Shown here piece by piece: positions 23,899 through 31,327 of a stretch of DNA of 64,000 nucleotides (position 1 is its first letter; each line of letters starts with the position of its first letter). Origin of the DNA: Candidatus Saccharimonadota bacterium. GTDB lineage: Bacteria > Patescibacteriota > Saccharimonadia > Saccharimonadales > Saccharimonadaceae. The stretch covers positions 124,001 to 188,000 of the forward strand of contig JAATFU010000007.1 of assembly GCA_015655045.1 (NCBI GenBank), in the 5' to 3' direction. Under the pieces are notes generated by a model. That model did no database searches, was not told the DNA's origin, and was given only the letters and a program-made list of their open reading frames with translations. The position numbers were made by a program, and so were the translations under genes.

Positions 23899-23973
23899 AG
23901 GGGCATAGTACAACGGTTAGTACATAGGTCTCCAAAACCTAGGATCGTGGTTCGATTCCACGTGCCCCTGCCA
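23899..23973 (+). tRNA. tRNA-Trp (CCA), 3' CCA encoded
   Basis: AGGGGCATAGTACAACGGTTAGTACATAGGTCTCCAAAACCTAGGATCGTGGTTCGATTCCACGTGCCCCTGCCA. Confidence 0.95.
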
Positions 23974-24130
23974 AACTGGAAATTATGAAATCAGAACTGT
24001 TAATCGGTTCTGATTTTTTATGCCAGCGTGACACATTTGAAACTTCATCTGTTATTTGGTTCTAACCTAAATTGTTTATGTTTGATAATACCTACGCATA
24101 ATCTTATACTGAAATAAACAAGGAGGTTAG

Positions 24131-24406
24131 ATGACAGAAATCATTACCATTAGTTACATTGAAGACGACCCTAAAGAAATAGAGCTTGTTGAAACAATCG
24201 GCGGTCGTATTCGCTCCTTAGGAGGTTTGGCTATTTTAACTCCTCTACGATTTGACGAAGATGGCCATGGCGGCGGAGAGACCCCAACAATTGATTTTCC
24301 TAATGGGAAAATACTTAGCGGAATGTCTAGCCTGAATCAACTGCTTGATAGCCAATATATTGAAGAGTACATACAGCCTGGTGTCGATATCGATATTCAA
24401 AATTAG
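24131..24406 (+). CDS. Hypothetical protein (91 aa), first ORF of accessory array
   Basis: ORF with upstream aaggagg. Confidence 0.6.
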   Translation: MTEIITISYIEDDPKEIELVETIGGRIRSLGGLAILTPLRFDEDGHGGGETPTIDFPNGKILSGMSSLNQLLDSQYIEEYIQPGVDIDIQN

Positions 24407-24462
24407 TACACTATTCATATATGGGAAACCTATCGATAGGTTATCCGGCTGCATCCTAAATC

Positions 24463-24541
24463 AACTTAGTTCTAATTTCGTACACGATGCTCTGCCAAGC
24501 ATAAGCACGATTATAAAAGTCTCCGAAATGGAGACTTTTTT
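24463..24541 (+). repeat. Array spacer R1 (class B left half, GCC junction 24494-24496, AAGCATAAGC right half and terminator)
   Basis: agttctaatttcgtacacgatgctctGCCAAGCATAAGCACGAttataaAAGTCTCCgaaatGGAGACTTTTTT. Confidence 0.8.
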
Positions 24542-24555
24542 GCTATGATTAATCT

Positions 24556-24924
24556 ATGACAAAAGAACGAATGAATAGAAAAAACTTTATATTCGTATTT
24601 ATTACAGGTTTCGTTGTAGCGAATCTCTTACTAGTTATATCTTATTTTATTGATCAGATTAATACTCCACTGGGATCAGTAGTAGTCAGTCTGATAGGTA
24701 TAGTATTAATTTTATTAGCAGTCTATCTTGCGGTAGTCTGGATATTAGCAACCATCAAGAGGCTGCATGACTTCGATGTTACGGGTTGGCTTGCAATTAT
24801 ATTCTTCGTTACACCGGCACTTATCATCCTTGCTTTCATACCAGGAACGAAAGGTCCTAATCAATTTGGTGAGAAACCCAGTCGCGGGTTAGATCTTCGT
24901 TCTGTTTTTCTGTGGCGTAGATAG
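24556..24924 (+). CDS. DUF805-like membrane protein
   Basis: Several TM segments, IKRLHDFDVTGWLAI and IPGTKGPNQFG. Confidence 0.8.
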   Translation: MTKERMNRKNFIFVFITGFVVANLLLVISYFIDQINTPLGSVVVSLIGIVLILLAVYLAVVWILATIKRLHDFDVTGWLAIIFFVTPALIILAFIPGTKGPNQFGEKPSRGLDLRSVFLWRR

Positions 24925-25038
24925 AATCTATCTCATCCATGTTGAAGTTTAATTCATCCCCAAAAGTTTGGTTCACGTACTCTTCGCCCTGCCAAGCATA
25001 AGCGCAATGAAGATAGTCTCCTTTTTGGAGGCTTTTTG
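24919..25038 (+). repeat. Array spacer R2 (class A left half)
   Basis: agatagaatctatctcatccatgttgaagtttaattcatccccaaaagtttggttcacgtactcttcgccctGCCAAGCATAAGCGCAATGA...AGTCTCCtttttGGAGGCTTTTTG. Confidence 0.85.
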
Positions 25039-25081
25039 TTTATGCTTGCTAAAGAATATACTTCTTAACATAATAGTCATC

Positions 25082-26011
25082 ATGATTTCACCAGACACGC
25101 CAACTCCATTTGAGGGCTTAAGCAAAGCAGGAAAAGTTTGGGCGCAAGAGAATGCGCTTGGAGAGTTAAAGGATGACATAAATAAGGATCTAAAGGGACT
25201 TTATCTTGCCGGAACTTTACTATGGCAAGCGCATAGGCGCCAAATGCTCGCAGAGATCCAAAGAAACGGTGGTGTTAAGAACCTAAGAAGGCCGTCATTT
25301 AGCGGAGGACTCAATATCGTTGAACTACAAAACGGACATTCTATACTTGCTGACAAGTTCTTAAAAACACCAAAACTTCTCGTAAGCAGTGAAGTGCTTT
25401 CAGCGCAACCCGCCAGCACCACTTTTACCCAAACACACGAGCTACGTGTTGCCTTTGGTGGATCTCTCCTGGGCGGTAGCATGCAACGATCTGATTATGA
25501 CATTAACGGGCAGATGTTTGCTTCAGTTGGCCTTGATCAAATCATCAATGATGACAGTTTCTTTCCCGAAGAAATAGGGATAACAGAAAGCATTACAACA
25601 GCGATGGAGCCTAATGAGAGTGAATCTCACTCAAGAGATCACGTAAATCGAGCTCACTACTCAATCGCTACATTAATCTGGGGGTCTAGTGCGGACGCAC
25701 ACTCTTCACCTATGCCGGATCCTTATACAGACTACTCGGCTTACCGCAAGTGGGCGTTACGTGGCAACCCGCAAATGGACATCACGTTTCAGGCACCAGT
25801 ATTTCAAAAAGACTATGAGCAGCCAACAAAAGCGACTGTCATTGATAAGTATGGTAAGTTTCAGCCGAATGCGGAGGTGGCAATTACATCACTAACAAGG
25901 TTCCGCTCTTTATTGGCATATTATGCAACAAAACAATGTCCTGACCTTTTTCCAGCAAATGAAGAAGAAAAGTTTGGTTACCTTGCAGAACCAATGCTTG
26001 AACTTGAATAG
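25082..26011 (+). CDS. Hypothetical protein (~309 aa), array cargo
   Basis: ORF start placed at 25082 (MISPDTPTPFEGL), past the spacer, instead of ORF-track 24968. Confidence 0.6.
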   Translation: MISPDTPTPFEGLSKAGKVWAQENALGELKDDINKDLKGLYLAGTLLWQAHRRQMLAEIQRNGGVKNLRRPSFSGGLNIVELQNGHSILADKFLKTPKLLVSSEVLSAQPASTTFTQTHELRVAFGGSLLGGSMQRSDYDINGQMFASVGLDQIINDDSFFPEEIGITESITTAMEPNESESHSRDHVNRAHYSIATLIWGSSADAHSSPMPDPYTDYSAYRKWALRGNPQMDITFQAPVFQKDYEQPTKATVIDKYGKFQPNAEVAITSLTRFRSLLAYYATKQCPDLFPANEEEKFGYLAEPMLELE

Positions 26012-26083
26012 GTTCTAAGCTCATCCACTAGCGGCCGCCAAGCATAAGGATGATGATGAAAGTCTCCATTTTGGAGGTTTTTT
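26011..26083 (+). repeat. Array spacer R3 (class C left half with AAGCATAAG right half)
   Basis: ggttctaagctcatccactagcggccGCCAAGCATAAGgatgatgatgaAAGTCTCCattttGGAGGTTTTTTG. Confidence 0.8.
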
Positions 26084-26128
26084 GTTTACGCTTGTCAGTA
26101 TTCACCTAGGGGTATAAAGTGATTATTA

Positions 26129-26542
26129 ATGGAACAAATCAAAAATAATTCAGTTCTAGTATATGAATCACCTAAAGATATGGATGATTTTGAGCGCAGT
26201 GAAGCCCAGCTAGAAGCCGCAAGAAATCGCGCAAAAAGTCTTATAGCCGATAATCGAGTGATGATAGAAGCACTTAAATCATATGGTCTCGGTCTTACAG
26301 AAGAACTAGACTTATCGACATTTATCGGACCCGTCGCCGTATATTTACAAGAAACCGAGGCTACAAATTTGAGAGATAGGCTTTTTCGCTGGTCTACTTA
26401 TTTCACACAGAATATCGATGATATCACCGTGTTTAGCGATTCGATTGAGAATGGAATATTAACTGATCCGAGTACTATGTTTGACGTAGTGGCAATGACG
26501 GAGACTCTATTAAGAGCTGCTGCAGGTGTTATCAAGAAGTAG
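26129..26542 (+). CDS. Hypothetical protein (137 aa), array cargo
   Basis: ORF between spacers R3 and R4. Confidence 0.6.
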   Translation: MEQIKNNSVLVYESPKDMDDFERSEAQLEAARNRAKSLIADNRVMIEALKSYGLGLTEELDLSTFIGPVAVYLQETEATNLRDRLFRWSTYFTQNIDDITVFSDSIENGILTDPSTMFDVVAMTETLLRAAAGVIKK

Positions 26543-26546
26543 TAAA

Positions 26547-26575
26547 AGTTCGAAGCTCATCCACTAGGGGCTGCC
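26547..26575 (+). repeat. Array spacer R4 (class C left half only)
   Basis: agttcgaagctcatccactaggggctGCC, then unrelated sequence. Confidence 0.8.
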
Positions 26576-26657
26576 AAAAAATCACAAAAGAAAAAGATGC
26601 GATTGATTCAATACAGTATCTTTCGCATCCTTATCTACTTACAATTATAGCTAAATG

Positions 26658-27038
26658 CTACAAAATATCAATAACCTTTAGAGATTTCGTCACGATCTTA
26701 AGATGCGTGATGCTATGGTTTTGTGTTTTAAGATATGCATTAATCCGAGCAACTGCTTTGTAATAATTCATGGGCGTTCGGTTAAGATCAATGACTATGT
26801 TTGACGACTGCTTACGTGCAGAACGTAAATTATTCTCCATTGTTTTCTTGCCATTACCGAGTGGACTCTTAATTTCCCATCGGACTCCGCCAATATCCAA
26901 ATCTGGAGTCTTTTGATGCCCTGGACGAAGAAAAATTACGTCCATCTTAAAGTGTTCCGCAAGTAGTAGTGCGACAGACATTTCATGATCCTTGGGATGA
27001 TCTTTCTGAGTGGTTTCGACTATTACTTTATATTTCAT
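26658..27038 (-). CDS. CdiA-C / PD-(D/E)XK-like nuclease domain protein (copy 1)
   Basis: TPDLDIGGVRWEIKSPLGNGKKTMENNLRSARKQSSNIVIDLNR. Confidence 0.65.
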   Translation of the reverse strand: MKYKVIVETTQKDHPKDHEMSVALLLAEHFKMDVIFLRPGHQKTPDLDIGGVRWEIKSPLGNGKKTMENNLRSARKQSSNIVIDLNRTPMNYYKAVARINAYLKTQNHSITHLKIVTKSLKVIDIL

Positions 27039-27069
27039 CTCTAGTTTATTATACTTTCTTGGGCCTTTC

Positions 27070-27192
27070 GCAGATAGAGTCTATCTCCTCTATATCGAAG
27101 TTTAACTCATCCCCAAAAGTTTGATTGACGTACGCTTCGCCCTGCCAAGCATAAGCACGATGACTGAAGTCTCCGAAATGGAGGCTTTTTGT
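27070..27192 (+). repeat. Array spacer R5 (class A left half)
   Basis: agatagagtctatctcctctatatcgaagtttaactcatccccaaaagtttgattgacgtacgcttcgccctGCCAAGCATAAGCACGATGA...AGTCTCCgaaatGGAGGCTTTTTG. Confidence 0.85.
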
Positions 27193-27204
27193 TATACTCA
27201 AGCT

Positions 27205-27708
27205 ATGAATTTAGAGTATCCATATCAATTAACAACCTTCATAGATATCGAACCAAAGATAGGTGAATCTGTTTATTATGGTGAACGAGGGTGGTTTCCG
27301 CAGATTGCGCTCAAACGGAGGTTTAAAGCAATGGGCATTTCAGAAGCAGAATTAATTGAAATGATATCCCATTACTGTAAATCGAGAACATCTTTTATTA
27401 TTCAAACTGGAAAGCTAGTGAAACCAGAACGTATGCCCGTGAGGGTATTGGAAGTAGACGACCTACACGGTTACTTGATTGATTTTCATAAAGATTTTAT
27501 ATCGTACATGGAGAAATCCATGTCATCAAGATATCCAGATCGCGATGGAGTAAATTACCAGCCGCATGTCACTGCAGAATTTAATGGACAAATGGTGATT
27601 GATGATAAGAAGTTTACCGACAAACTGTACGAAATAAATCGAGTATTTTTGCTTAAGGACGTAGATAACGAAAACTCTGTAGCATGCGAGAGCTTTGATC
27701 TTAATTAG
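27205..27708 (+). CDS. 2H phosphoesterase / 2'-5' RNA ligase-like protein, array cargo
   Basis: One recognisable HxT motif (YQPHVTAEFNG); start after TATACT-N6-ATG. Confidence 0.45.
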   Translation: MNLEYPYQLTTFIDIEPKIGESVYYGERGWFPQIALKRRFKAMGISEAELIEMISHYCKSRTSFIIQTGKLVKPERMPVRVLEVDDLHGYLIDFHKDFISYMEKSMSSRYPDRDGVNYQPHVTAEFNGQMVIDDKKFTDKLYEINRVFLLKDVDNENSVACESFDLN

Positions 27709-27715
27709 AATGAAA

Positions 27716-27744
27716 AGTTCTAAGCTCGTCCACTAGGGGCTGCC
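27716..27744 (+). repeat. Array spacer R6 (class C left half only)
   Basis: agttctaagctcgtccactaggggctGCC, then an unrelated terminator hairpin. Confidence 0.8.
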
Positions 27745-27753
27745 GAATAAAAT

Positions 27754-27779
27754 CGATCAGCTTCTGCTGGTCGTTTTTA
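27754..27779 (+). terminator. Intrinsic terminator in R6 right half
   Basis: CGATCAGCTTCTGCTGGTCGTTTTTA. Confidence 0.75.
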
Positions 27780-27830
27780 TTTGATTGGAGAATGTCGAGT
27801 TGAAGCAGGATCTGCGAGCGCAGCGAGTAA

Positions 27831-28012
27831 GATCGTGGTTCGAGCACGAGGAGCAACGAAAATGTGTTTACATATTTTCGTGTGACGATGTTGCTATCTT
27901 TAGATATTCCACGTGCCCCTGCCAAATCAGAAATCATTAAATTAGGACTGTTAATTGATTCTAACTTTTTATGGCAACGTGACACATTTTAATTTGTATC
28001 TGTTATTTTTGT
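27831..28012 (+). pseudogene. Decayed, interrupted duplicate of tRNA-Trp 3' end plus its downstream region (att-like)
   Basis: ATCGTGGTTCGA, ~65 nt insert, TTCCACGTGCCCCTGCCA, then sequence homologous to 23974-24060 (aactgttaat..., gcgtgacacatttt..., tctgttattt...). Confidence 0.8.
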
Positions 28013-28069
28013 TCTAGCTTAAAATAAAAGTGGCCGCCCCTTTCAGGGCGGACACTCTCGCTTGAAGTT

Positions 28070-28420
28070 TCAGGACGCTGGCTCCAGCTCTGACTCTTTC
28101 ACCGTCTGAGCTTCCTCGTTCTTCTGGTCTCGCTTGTAGTTCTTGTACACGAGATACACAGCCATCAGCGCGATGAGCACGAAGGCGAAGATGAGCATCG
28201 CTGTCAGAGAGTCGACAGATCGTTGCAGGTTGTCGATTGAACTCCGTTGGTTCAAGATGTAGTTCGGGTAATCCTTCGGGTTGATGCCGCAGATGCCGTC
28301 GTCTTGCGTGGCTCCAGGAGAGCTGTTGCAGACGGCAGCACTTGCACTCGCTGCGGGAATGAGAACCGCAGTAAAGGCGAGCGTGAGCGTTCCGAGCAGA
28401 ACTGCGATGATGCGTCGCAT
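28070..28420 (-). CDS. Predicted secreted/membrane hypothetical protein (116 aa), GC-rich
   Basis: Signal peptide MRRIIAVLLGTLTLAFTAVLIPAASASA, one TM; upstream SD-like GGAAGGAAAG. Confidence 0.65.
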   Translation of the reverse strand: MRRIIAVLLGTLTLAFTAVLIPAASASAAVCNSSPGATQDDGICGINPKDYPNYILNQRSSIDNLQRSVDSLTAMLIFAFVLIALMAVYLVYKNYKRDQKNEEAQTVKESELEPAS

Positions 28421-28570
28421 CGTCTTTCCTTCCAGTAGTGAGAGTTACGAAACTGAGAACGACAAGATGAGGCATCTTATCACACTCAATCTCGCACTTG
28501 CTCTATCAATTTGTAATACTTATTATAACACCAGAAGTTATGTTTGTATATTAAGTAGTTTACGGTCACT

Positions 28571-28654
28571 AAATTAATTTGGTTCTAACTTCGTTTATAA
28601 TGCCCTGCCACGCATAAGCGCAATAAAATTAGTCTCCGATTCGGAGGCTTCTTG
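28571..28654 (+). repeat. Array spacer R7 (class B left half)
   Basis: aaattaatttggttctaacttcgtttataatgccctGCCACGCATAAGCGCAATaaaattAGTCTCCgattcGGAGGCTTCTTG. Confidence 0.8.
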
Positions 28655-28668
28655 TTATAATTGACTGA

Positions 28669-29079
28669 ATGACTAAAGTGGTAATTGAAAAAGAACTTGG
28701 TGCGACACCTACAATCATCGAAAGTGAGGTTGTTGATATTCTTGTACAAAACGGCATTGTAAGGGAACATGTTTTATTTTTAAAGCCAAACCGTGTAATT
28801 GGCTCAAAAACACCAGATATACAGATAGATCACGATGTAAAATGGGAAATAAAGTCTATCACTGTCGATGGAAAATATACCCTTGCACATGCGCTTCGGC
28901 AAGGTCTACTGCAATCTAAAAACCTCATTATCGATATACGTCGCTTAAGGCCAGGTATGCAAGATAAGTATAGGCAAAAAATCAATAAAGAATTCCTTAT
29001 GACTAAATCATGGCAGTCTGCAGTGATAGTATTAAAGGCCCATAAAGGTAATGTTTCATTATTGACTCTGGAGAAATAA
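28669..29079 (+). CDS. CdiA-C / PD-(D/E)XK-like nuclease domain protein (copy 2)
   Basis: TPDIQIDHDVKWEIKSITVDGKYTLAHALRQGLLQSKNLIIDIRR; leaderless TATAAT-N7-ATG. Confidence 0.65.
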   Translation: MTKVVIEKELGATPTIIESEVVDILVQNGIVREHVLFLKPNRVIGSKTPDIQIDHDVKWEIKSITVDGKYTLAHALRQGLLQSKNLIIDIRRLRPGMQDKYRQKINKEFLMTKSWQSAVIVLKAHKGNVSLLTLEK

Positions 29080-29203
29080 TTTGCTACTATAAATTGTAAA
29101 GAGACGTCGCTCCTGCTGGATAGCTCGAGCCGCGTCTCTTTTTTTGAGCATATCTGTTATTTTAAAGACTATTCATAAATGACACCTAACTCCACTACCT
29201 TGA

Positions 29204-29260
29204 GGGTTAATCATTCCCAAAAGTTTGGTTCACGTACTCTACGCCATGCCAAACAGAACG
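29204..29260 (+). repeat. Array spacer R8 (class A core, inside minus-strand small ORF)
   Basis: ttcccaaaagtttggttcacgtactctacgccatGCCA. Confidence 0.75.
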
Positions 29261-29335
29261 AAGAGCAATTTCAAGCTCTTTTTTTGTTTTACGACCTCTG
29301 TTATTTTCTTCGTCATTTACGGTTTGGTTATTCAT
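29207..29335 (-). CDS. Small protein (42 aa) related to the reverse translation of class A spacers
   Basis: MNNQTVNDEENNRGRKTKKELEIALRSVWHGVEYVNQTFGND*; SD AGGAGG 7 nt upstream. Confidence 0.6.
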   Translation of the reverse strand: MNNQTVNDEENNRGRKTKKELEIALRSVWHGVEYVNQTFGND

Positions 29336-29400
29336 TTTCTATCCTCCTATTATTTCCTTAGTTTTTAATGTTTTCTGAGCCACCACTGCAGCAAATTTTA

Positions 29401-29422
29401 TCTTATCATCTTGATGATAAGA
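29401..29422. promoter_or_regulatory. Perfect palindrome, likely toxin-antitoxin operator
   Basis: TCTTATCATCTTGATGATAAGA, just upstream of -10 TATTAT and the antitoxin start. Confidence 0.75.
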
Positions 29423-29458
29423 TGCACTTGTGCTATTATGAACATAAGGAGAAATAAT

Positions 29459-29677
29459 ATGCGTACCACAATCACACTTAATGACAAATTGTTCCGTGCC
29501 CTAAAGATCCGCGCTGCCGAAACTGACGAAACTATCAGCAGTATCGTGGAAGACGCCGTTAAGTATCAGCTACTCGAAGATTTAGAGGATATCGAAATAG
29601 CTAAAAAGCGTCAAAATGAGCCTACTCTTTCTTTCGAATCACTCGTCACAACGTTAAAGGCCGAGGGACTCTTGTAA
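29459..29677 (+). CDS. Antitoxin (ribbon-helix-helix/RelB-like)
   Basis: MRTTITLNDKLFRALKIRAAETDETISSIVEDAVKYQL; next to a RelE-like ORF. Confidence 0.8.
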   Translation: MRTTITLNDKLFRALKIRAAETDETISSIVEDAVKYQLLEDLEDIEIAKKRQNEPTLSFESLVTTLKAEGLL

Positions 29678-29699
29678 GAGTTCTTCGATTAGGCCAGAT

Positions 29700-29960
29700 A
29701 TGTATCAAATCATATACGTTAAGCCCGTCGAGAAAGAACTACGTAAACTCGACGCCTCCATTCGTAAAGCAATCGTAAAAAAGATTCTAGCACTTGCCGA
29801 AACACCTAGGCCACAAGGAGTGACTCAACTCCATGGATCGAATAACCTTTACCGTATTCGTCATGCTGACTACCGGGTAGTGTACGAAATTCGTGATAGT
29901 AATCTAATTGTGCTTGTTATTAAAGTTGCTCATCGACGCGAAGTGTATCGAGATTTCTAA
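29700..29960 (+). CDS. RelE/ParE-family toxin
   Basis: KELRKLDASIRKAIVKKI...YRIRHADYRVVYEIRDSNLIVLVIKVAHRREVYRDF. Confidence 0.88.
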   Translation: MYQIIYVKPVEKELRKLDASIRKAIVKKILALAETPRPQGVTQLHGSNNLYRIRHADYRVVYEIRDSNLIVLVIKVAHRREVYRDF

Positions 29961-29981
29961 ACTTTACGATCATTCATCTAT

Positions 29982-30075
29982 CTCGAAGCTCATAGATAGA
30001 ATTTATTTCCTCTATATCGAAATTTTAACTCATCTCCAAAGTTTGATTCTAGAACTCTTTGCCCTGCTAGAGCTT
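29982..30075 (+). repeat. Array spacer R9 (degenerate class A left half)
   Basis: tcgaagctcatagatagaatttatttcctctatatcgaaattttaactcatctccaaagtttgattctagaactctttgccctgc. Confidence 0.7.
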
Positions 30076-30183
30076 AATAGATTAGATAACATGGCTAAAT
30101 ACAAAAGATGGCATAGTGCCTCGCGCAAGCGTCTCTTAAAAAAGAAAGTAACAAGCCTCGAGTTCAAACTCGGTCACTAAACA

Positions 30184-30211
30184 AGAAGTCTCCACGATGG
30201 AGACTTCTTGT
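30184..30211 (+). terminator. Hairpin terminator running into extended -10 promoter
   Basis: CAAGAAGTCTCCacgatGGAGACTTCTTG then TTATACT. Confidence 0.75.
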
Positions 30212-30223
30212 TATACTGAGCGG

Positions 30224-31138
30224 ATGAGAAGTGATCTAATCGACAAAAGACTGAAAGAAATTAATGCTATTATTCCTTTTTCTAAGATTCTCGACCGTAA
30301 CGCTAATAATATGAACAATATCGCTAACTATTACAGGCTAAATAGGCTTGCGTATCGCTTAATCAATAGTAGAGAAGGTTTTGTACATATGGGTATCAGT
30401 AGGGATGGAGTATTTAAGGATACCGACTTTCTTGAACATGCAAATCTTATATCTAGATTTATGAATAATGTGAATACACTAGACGTGCTCGAGCTCGCTG
30501 CAGGAAAAGCGGCGACAACCAAATATCTCGCTAAAAAATATCCGACTATCTCCTTTACCGGCTTAGACCTACCGAATGGGCAACTTAATATTTCATCGAG
30601 TAAAAATACTAATTTGAGATTAGTTGAAGGTGACTATCACGATTTAACTCAATTTGATAACAATAGCTTCGACGTCGTATATATAATTGAAGCATTATGC
30701 CATGCTATCAATAAGAAACAAGTTATAAAAGAAACGAATAGGATATTGAAACCAGGGGGTGTATTTGTAATATTCGATGGCTATGCATCAAAAGAGCGAG
30801 GCTCCATGTCAGCAATAGAGACCCTTGTGTCTGATCTTACGTATAGCAGTATGATGGTGACTAAAGACGATCATTCATATGCTGAATTGCGTAGTAATCT
30901 CATCTCTTCTGGTTTTAATATTATCGAGGAAGAAAATCTTTCGAAATACGTTCTTCCTACTATGGAACGATTTGAGAAGAAAGCTATTAAATATTTCCAG
31001 AAACCCTTATATGCAAAAGTTTTAAATACAATCCTCCCAATTGAGGTAACGGGCAATGCCGTGGCCGCTTATCTTATGCCCTTATCTATTAAAGCCGGGC
31101 TACACCAGTACTGGGTTACTGTTTCGAAGAAAGAATAG
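30224..31138 (+). CDS. SAM-dependent methyltransferase (class I)
   Basis: VLELAAGKAATTKYLAKKYPTISFTGLDLP; start after TATACT-N6-ATG. Confidence 0.85.
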   Translation: MRSDLIDKRLKEINAIIPFSKILDRNANNMNNIANYYRLNRLAYRLINSREGFVHMGISRDGVFKDTDFLEHANLISRFMNNVNTLDVLELAAGKAATTKYLAKKYPTISFTGLDLPNGQLNISSSKNTNLRLVEGDYHDLTQFDNNSFDVVYIIEALCHAINKKQVIKETNRILKPGGVFVIFDGYASKERGSMSAIETLVSDLTYSSMMVTKDDHSYAELRSNLISSGFNIIEEENLSKYVLPTMERFEKKAIKYFQKPLYAKVLNTILPIEVTGNAVAAYLMPLSIKAGLHQYWVTVSKKE

Positions 31139-31327
31139 TTCGAGGCTCGTATGTCAGAAATTGCCGAATTATAAATCATGCATTTAGAGTCGTCAGTCGG
31201 TTCAAAGTTTCTATATTGATATGGCTCATATTAGATAGAACAAACTATCGAGTTAAATAGTTTAGTGTCGACTCTAATGCCAAGAGATAATCTGTCGTAT
31301 TATACTAATGGGGCTATACTAAGAGAT

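Follow-up and report, generated by a model that had tools for sequence, protein, structure and literature searches.

Among the closest described counterparts of the locus considered here are the tandem ssrA islands of Dehalococcoides, of which sixteen carry an integration module; their serine recombinase is DsiB, the integrase gene adjoins attL, and islands without an integrase have been proposed to be cis-mobilizable (PMC3146451). Our locus lies in a 64,000-nucleotide stretch of a Candidatus Saccharimonadota genome (contig JAATFU010000007.1, positions 124,001 to 188,000; hereafter the window, numbered from its first letter) and is a row of about 11 units, each 0.2–1.1 kb long and mostly with one gene, that starts exactly at the 3' end of a tRNA-Trp gene. 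Sequence comparison makes it probable that these units are non-autonomous, mostly single-gene cassettes, integrated at the tRNA-Trp 3' end by site-specific recombination of the kind that large serine integrases perform, the enzyme acting in trans. Both systems involve a large serine recombinase of about 540 amino acids, an integrase gene next to attL, the 3' part of a tRNA-like gene and many tandem units in one region. Whereas the Dehalococcoides islands are larger and many of them encode a recombinase, the units here mostly hold one gene (median length 727 bp for the 91 units cut between sites across arrays), have a built-in terminator and promoter, carry no recombinase and use several tRNAs as anchors, with matching dinucleotides at the junctions.

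The composite islands of the staphylococcal cassette chromosome (SCC), with their CcrAB or CcrC enzymes, likewise depend on serine recombinases and pile up at a single end site of the chromosome, direct repeats standing between them, but SCC elements are large, contain ccr and integrate into rlmH, unlike the single-gene units at tRNA 3' ends (PMC7029136). With integrons the array shares one-gene cassettes mainly in one orientation, a site behind each gene right after its stop codon, a fixed anchor and accessory cargo; it differs in the lack of intI and of attC boxes (GTTRRRY), in its tRNA anchor, in having its own promoters and terminators, and in a site geometry like that of serine integrases. 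The cassettes are best read as integron-like in behaviour, not as integrons. Cis-mobilizable elements (CIMEs) accrete at tRNA genes in a comparable way, keeping att sites, lacking recombination genes and stacking in tandem; to our knowledge, those described so far are large derivatives of integrative and conjugative elements or of integrative and mobilizable elements (IMEs), not single-gene cassettes. The pdif modules of Acinetobacter plasmids are also small gene modules whose recombinase is encoded outside the module, but they are bounded by 28-bp XerC/XerD sites, and such arms are absent from the array sites. Autonomous serine-integrase elements, whether IMEs or phages, differ in carrying an integrase gene inside the unit. 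Single-gene cassette arrays of a serine type were not found described, in Saccharibacteria, the candidate phyla radiation or elsewhere, in a literature search that left out preprints and most subscription journals.

Layout of the array at tRNA-Trp

The source genome (848 kb in 8 contigs, 99% complete) belongs to the Saccharibacteria group; public records list its site-sharing relatives as Candidatus Saccharibacteria. Repeat search and self-BLAST recovered all the spacers named in the original prediction, a reading of the window alone that had described a cassette-like array between 24400 and 30230; the array actually extends from 23970, the end of tRNA-Trp, to about 31165. Each unit ends in a 29-nt site with the consensus AGTTCKAARNTCGTCCACKAGGGG-CT-GCCA, immediately 3' of the stop codon, and a terminator and promoter open the following unit. 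The spacers are modular, several types of conserved left half (~30 nt) being combined with several types of right half (terminator and -10 box), and the halves meet at one point, CTGCC/A, the same letters with which tRNA-Trp ends. A TATAAT-like box stands a few bases 5' of the ATG in several of the window units.

The junctions comprise 10 cassette-end sites and one tRNA-like junction at 27923. Eight sites are clear, all on the + strand between 24.47 and 29.25 kb, and two are decayed, at 30.04 and 31.14 kb; there are none elsewhere in the window. A position weight matrix (PWM) built from 71 sites of all arrays gave eight window matches of 27.6–53.9 bits, all on the + strand (24496–29250). Since the window sites belong to the training set, the informative test is the absence of matches elsewhere and in shuffled DNA. 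The ninth-best + strand score was 9.3 bits at 31165, immediately 3' of the stop codon that closes the last cassette gene, and no score on the - strand of the window reached 8 bits. The left part of the matrix alone found 152 sites in ~0.96 Mb of fetched loci versus 0 in shuffled sequence.

Within the 848-kb genome the near-exact core (0–1 mismatch) is restricted to this locus, so the spacers are not ordinary terminators dispersed over the chromosome. In a pattern search 23 of 393 genomes of the order, representing 13 of 156 genera, had sites, as did 16 of 380 genomes sampled across the phylum, while a reversed control pattern was found in no genome of either sample. Exact matches among 84,980 species genomes amounted to 10 stretches, all from Saccharibacteria (some records being titled 'bacterium UBA6025'), and an exact search of IMG/VR viral contigs gave no match. 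Rfam detected in the array tRNA-Trp, one weak chance match and nothing else. The features are as follows (+ strand unless stated).

23899..23973: tRNA-Trp (cca), the anchor (ARAGORN, Rfam)
23949-23957: outer motif GGTTCGATT of the attB-like half-site in the tRNA-Trp 3' end, with putative crossover dinucleotide CT at 23968-23969, then GCCA (half-site comparison; relatives diverge immediately behind CCA)
23970..24491: cassette 1; right half with terminator at ~23988-24024; gene 24131-24406, 91 aa, no Pfam; ends in site S1
24468..24497: site S1; attP-type left half AGTTCTAAT..., CT, GCCA; PWM 44.2 bits; offset 5
24494..24988: cassette 2; terminator and TATGAT box; DUF805 gene 24556-24924
24965..24994: site S2; PWM 33.2 bits
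24991..26034: cassette 3; gene 25082-26011, 309 aa, no Pfam
26011..26040: site S3; PWM 51.1 bits
26037..26570: cassette 4; gene 26129-26542, 137 aa, no Pfam
26547..26576: site S4; PWM 51.3 bits
26573..27141: cassette 5; CdiA_C-domain gene 26658-27038 on the - strand (PF18451, E 2e-16)
27118..27147: site S5; PWM 32.9 bits
27144..27739: cassette 6; gene 27205-27708
27716..27745: site S6; exact consensus, 0 mismatches; PWM 53.9 bits
27742..27923: unit 7, gene-less, ~180 bp; interrupted tRNA-Trp 3' half; ends in the tRNA-like junction
27921..28604: cassette 8; gene for a 116-aa membrane-protein-like product, 28070-28420, on the - strand; right half 83% identical to the DNA behind tRNA-Trp
28581..28610: site S7; PWM 35.3 bits
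28607..29245: cassette 9; CdiA_C-domain gene 28669-29079 (Pfam, E 3.5e-8)
29222..29251: site S8; PWM 27.6 bits
29248..30063: cassette 10; RHH-type antitoxin 29459-29677 and ParE toxin 29700-29960 (Pfam)
30040..30068: site S9, decayed; 74-81% identical to the S2/S5 modules
30066..31160: cassette 11; methyltransferase gene 30224-31138 (Pfam Methyltransf_11)
31137..31166: site S10, decayed, right behind the methyltransferase stop codon; PWM 9.3 bits, ninth best in the window

The earlier picture of one-gene units of 0.5–1.1 kb, mostly on the + strand, holds for most of the row; cassette 10 has two genes, unit 7 has none, and the genes of two units lie on the - strand. Its DUF805, toxin-antitoxin and methyltransferase cargo was borne out by Pfam, whereas the two supposed WEIKS nucleases proved to be CdiA_C domains and a 2H-phosphoesterase-like gene found no Pfam support at E 0.01.

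In unit 7 the T-loop of the tRNA-Trp 3' half is split by ~70 bp with a hairpin. In genomes G034 and G251 copies of this unit (90–92%) stand first behind tRNA-Trp, and G010 has a partial copy in the same place (loci L078, L227 and L074). The GC content at 28000-28500 is 52%, compared with ~35–44% in the array, which suggests a foreign source for that cassette.

Half-sites and integrase-bearing elements

For the LI integrase the outer motif has been reported at positions 24-16 in attP half-sites and 19-11 in attB half-sites (PMC3783163). In the cassettes the outer block of the left half-site reads AGTTCKAAR, and its counterpart in tRNA-Trp lies 5 bases closer to the junction; with CT (tRNA bases 71-72) taken as the crossover, the block falls at 24-16 in the cassette and at 19-11 in the tRNA. 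With this outer, zinc-ribbon-type motif shifted by exactly 5 bp as in the LI integrase, the tRNA end has the spacing of an attB-type and the cassette end that of an attP-type half-site. We compared 12 half-site pairs from Trp, Gln, Asn and Gly tRNAs and an intron-bearing tRNA, three complete integrase elements included: an offset of 5 was the best in 11 pairs and tied in the remaining one.

The dinucleotide before GCC tracks the anchor tRNA, being CT for Trp, GA for Asn, and CA or TA for Gln according to the tRNA's own end. It equals that of the anchor in 69 of 79 undecayed sites, a result obtained in 0 of 10,000 permutations of anchors among loci, and four of the 10 mismatches lie behind tRNAs that are probably not their anchors. 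At internal sites GCCA is variable and CT constant. The original prediction had hesitated between an integron and tandem att insertions next to tRNA-Trp. A cassette array or tandem att insertions stand and the canonical integron does not: neither the R-box (GTTRRRY) nor an integron integrase was found, as had been anticipated, the site consensus is AGTTCKAARNTCGTCCACKAGGGGCTGCCA, and the serine-integrase-like geometry supports the suggestion of a different mechanism. Not foreseen were the role of the tRNA 3' end as the anchor, the 5-bp attP/attB signature in the left half-site, the similar arrays anchored at other tRNAs, and the complete integrase-bearing elements with matching ends in relatives and in the source genome.

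In members of the genus, large serine recombinases of diverse kinds sit at the 3' ends of tRNAs, their frames running antisense through the tRNA. Complete elements at such sites measure 8–11 kb, and their integrases have Resolvase, Recombinase and zinc-ribbon domains. Integrase elements occupy tRNA-Trp itself in G007, G016 and G026 and belong to two unrelated lineages, G007/G026 (92% identical) and G016 (22–23% to them). The unrelated G007 and G016 enzymes share the tRNA-encoded C-terminus WQGYTESNHDPRFWKPIY, since their genes run antisense through the target tRNA (L094, L095, L097). The G026 element, which was outside PWM training, ends 8 kb away in a site of 21.4 bits; the runner-up among the CTG(C/T)C positions of that locus scores 2.8 bits. 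The G004 integrase has 60% identity to the G007 enzyme and its element ends in a predicted site; S1 is identical at 20 of 27 positions to the end of this element, and the left half of S7 at 23 of 27 to the distal end of the complete element. The target of the G004 element is a tRNA-like gene split by a group I intron (L278:8725-8990; Rfam RF00028, 73.6 bits).

A recombinase search in the source genome, which the original prediction had proposed, yielded one Xer-like tyrosine recombinase and two serine recombinases, none of the tRNA-Trp type. One of the latter belongs to a complete integrase element at tRNA-Gly that has the same layout and obeys the 24/29-nt rule. The insertion point of the second is the 5' end of a YchF-like GTPase gene, into which its frame continues (L173, G000:C5:51710). 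A scan of ~57 kb did not reveal where the G016 element at tRNA-Trp ends on its far side, and the end of a tRNA-Asn element in G018 is shifted and doubtful.

Cassettes and cargo across relatives

The glycosyltransferase and glycoside hydrolase genes upstream of tRNA-Trp are kept in about 20 members of the genus (67–80% protein identity), and the DNA downstream is entirely different right after the CCA; gene order on this side varies among relatives. Two draft assemblies have a contig break exactly at the tRNA-Trp CCA. The clearest trace of movement is a 331-bp cassette shared by two species, G018 and G022, which is 98.5% identical (matches of 98.3–98.5%) in a backbone, represented by tRNA-flank and Xer-locus DNA, of 82–89% identity. 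The identical block reaches from 29 nt before the left junction to 2 nt past the right one, and the array position and neighbours of the cassette differ between the two genomes. A second block of 2.7 kb (98.8%) also begins at a site. Cassette 6 (27144-27739) has a full-length homologue in an array of another genus (G336), junction to junction with the same ends (69%, 595 bp).

The source genome has a smaller array at tRNA-Asn on contig C8 (L099), where the DNA behind the tRNA recurs ~2.6 kb downstream after a GAGCC site. Trp-type or near-Trp-type centres also occur far from any tRNA-Trp, by other tRNAs or by none, at L222, L223 and L224 (G022), L226 (G418) and L276 (G010).

Arrays of 8–11 units occur in several genera. 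The longest open reading frame is on the + strand in 75 and on the - strand in 15 of the 91 cassettes. Its stop codon stands most often 27–31 nt from the junction, so that the site starts right behind the gene. Right halves are terminator-like in 46 of 91 cassettes versus 13 of 91 after shuffling. Among 86 cargo proteins Pfam recognized NUDIX (5), GNAT (4), pilin-like N_methyl (4), HAD (2), HD (2) and CdiA_C (2) families, and ZIP, GDPD, methyltransferase and DUF805 in single cases; no recombinase is among the families listed for these proteins or in the window units. With its NUDIX, GNAT, pilin-like, HAD and CdiA_C members this cargo resembles that of integrons. The pilin-like proteins and NUDIX hydrolases, each encoded by several cassettes, are possibly linked to surface and host-interaction variation. 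Phage cargo was considered and rejected: PHROGs matches are mostly morons and metabolic genes, and the IMG/VR search was negative. PADLOC matches to defence systems are few, and those in the window are weak.

Mechanism, alternatives and meaning

In the scheme that we favour, cassettes would have been inserted one behind another at the tRNA-Trp 3' end by a recombinase provided in trans by integrase-bearing elements using the same tRNA. If the two bases before GCCA (tRNA bases 71-72) are the crossover dinucleotide, an incoming cassette would bring its own GCCA and restore the tRNA 3' end. The intrinsic terminator with which many cassettes begin may keep tRNA transcription closed after insertion, and the adjacent promoter may drive the cassette gene. 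The newest cassettes would enter beside the tRNA, older ones being pushed outward with decaying sites. As enzymes of the tRNA-Trp type are now absent from the source genome, mobilisation would come in trans from incoming elements. That the cassettes are active at all is what we infer from their sequences.

Several observations weigh against this scheme. The serine recombinases of the source genome are found only at tRNA-Gly and ychF, and in G010, which has an array, no serine recombinase was found. Neither circular forms nor excision were seen, nor any gain or loss between strains, and some CT-type sites lie away from tRNA-Trp. Sites S2, S5 and S8 depart from the consensus, and S2 does not settle the offset. 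The right half-site is poorly conserved (AAGCATAAG) and has no clear zinc-ribbon motif; none was found in the R families sharing AAGCATAAGC or its reverse. Moreover, serine integrases normally do not take attL as substrate, so repeated insertion beside the tRNA requires either that this rule be relaxed or that the right half be B-like. One possibility is that the right halves of cassettes act as attB-type halves, in which case each reaction would regenerate attB at the tRNA.

The alternative that survives best, though we consider it unlikely, is a graveyard of successive serine-integrase elements, phages or IMEs, that entered at tRNA-Trp and were deleted down to short pieces without any cassette system. 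The complete 8–11 kb elements at the same kind of site and the decay of the two distal window sites are what it would predict, and tandem islands of such a kind are known in Dehalococcoides (PMC3146451). Remnants, however, would hardly be compact units with terminator, promoter, a single reading frame and site all in place, nor form the long arrays seen in several genera with accessory, mostly non-phage cargo, and the cassette shared by G018 and G022 moved recently as a unit.

An explanation by tyrosine recombination is rather less likely still. Here the host Xer enzyme or an unseen integron-type integrase would mobilise the cassettes in the manner of dif modules or integrons, the 6 bp CTGCCA serving as the overlap. 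The identical block at the junction, about six bases (NNGCCA), does have the length of a Xer overlap, and tyrosine recombinases occur in 27 of 28 genus genomes, the Xer-like enzyme of the source genome included. But inverted 11-bp arms are missing, the column profile being that of a one-sided 29-nt site; GCCA varies internally around a constant CT, and NN alone tracks the anchor; most members of the genus have only one tyrosine recombinase, the genus search revealed no integron integrase, and the sites lack GTTRRRY boxes. The 5-bp offset between attP and attB and the ends shared with complete serine-integrase elements would also stay unexplained.

That the units are shuffled through their repeated spacers, by homologous recombination or natural transformation and with no site-specific recombinase, is very improbable. 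The spacers are indeed repeated, and the G018/G022 block ends within or beside one; conserved identity nevertheless covers just ~30–40 bp, which is short for RecA, and neither the several tRNA anchors with matching dinucleotides nor the attP/attB spacing is accounted for. Plain immobile terminator-promoter repeats can be dismissed almost entirely, for although right halves hold terminators and -10 boxes just before start codons, the repeats are confined to the array, gene content differs among genomes and conservation lies in the 29-nt left half rather than in the terminator.

A wider proposal earns slightly more credit than doubt: Patescibacteria may possess an analogue of the integron built on serine integrases, in which tRNA 3' ends with G73 (Trp, Gln, Asn) serve as reusable entry sites, cassettes consist of attP-type left and terminator-promoter right halves, integrases acting in trans exchange a cassette pool between species, and two crossover bases choose the tRNA. 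The 29-nt site offers a handle for mining cassettes across the phylum, and the integrases could serve as genome-insertion tools targeting tRNA 3' ends. The genomes of Patescibacteria are very small, and few ways in which they acquire genes are known. If the proposal is true, tRNA-anchored cassettes would provide them with an adaptive pool of accessory genes comparable to that of integrons and, as it would rest on another recombinase family, a case of convergent evolution.

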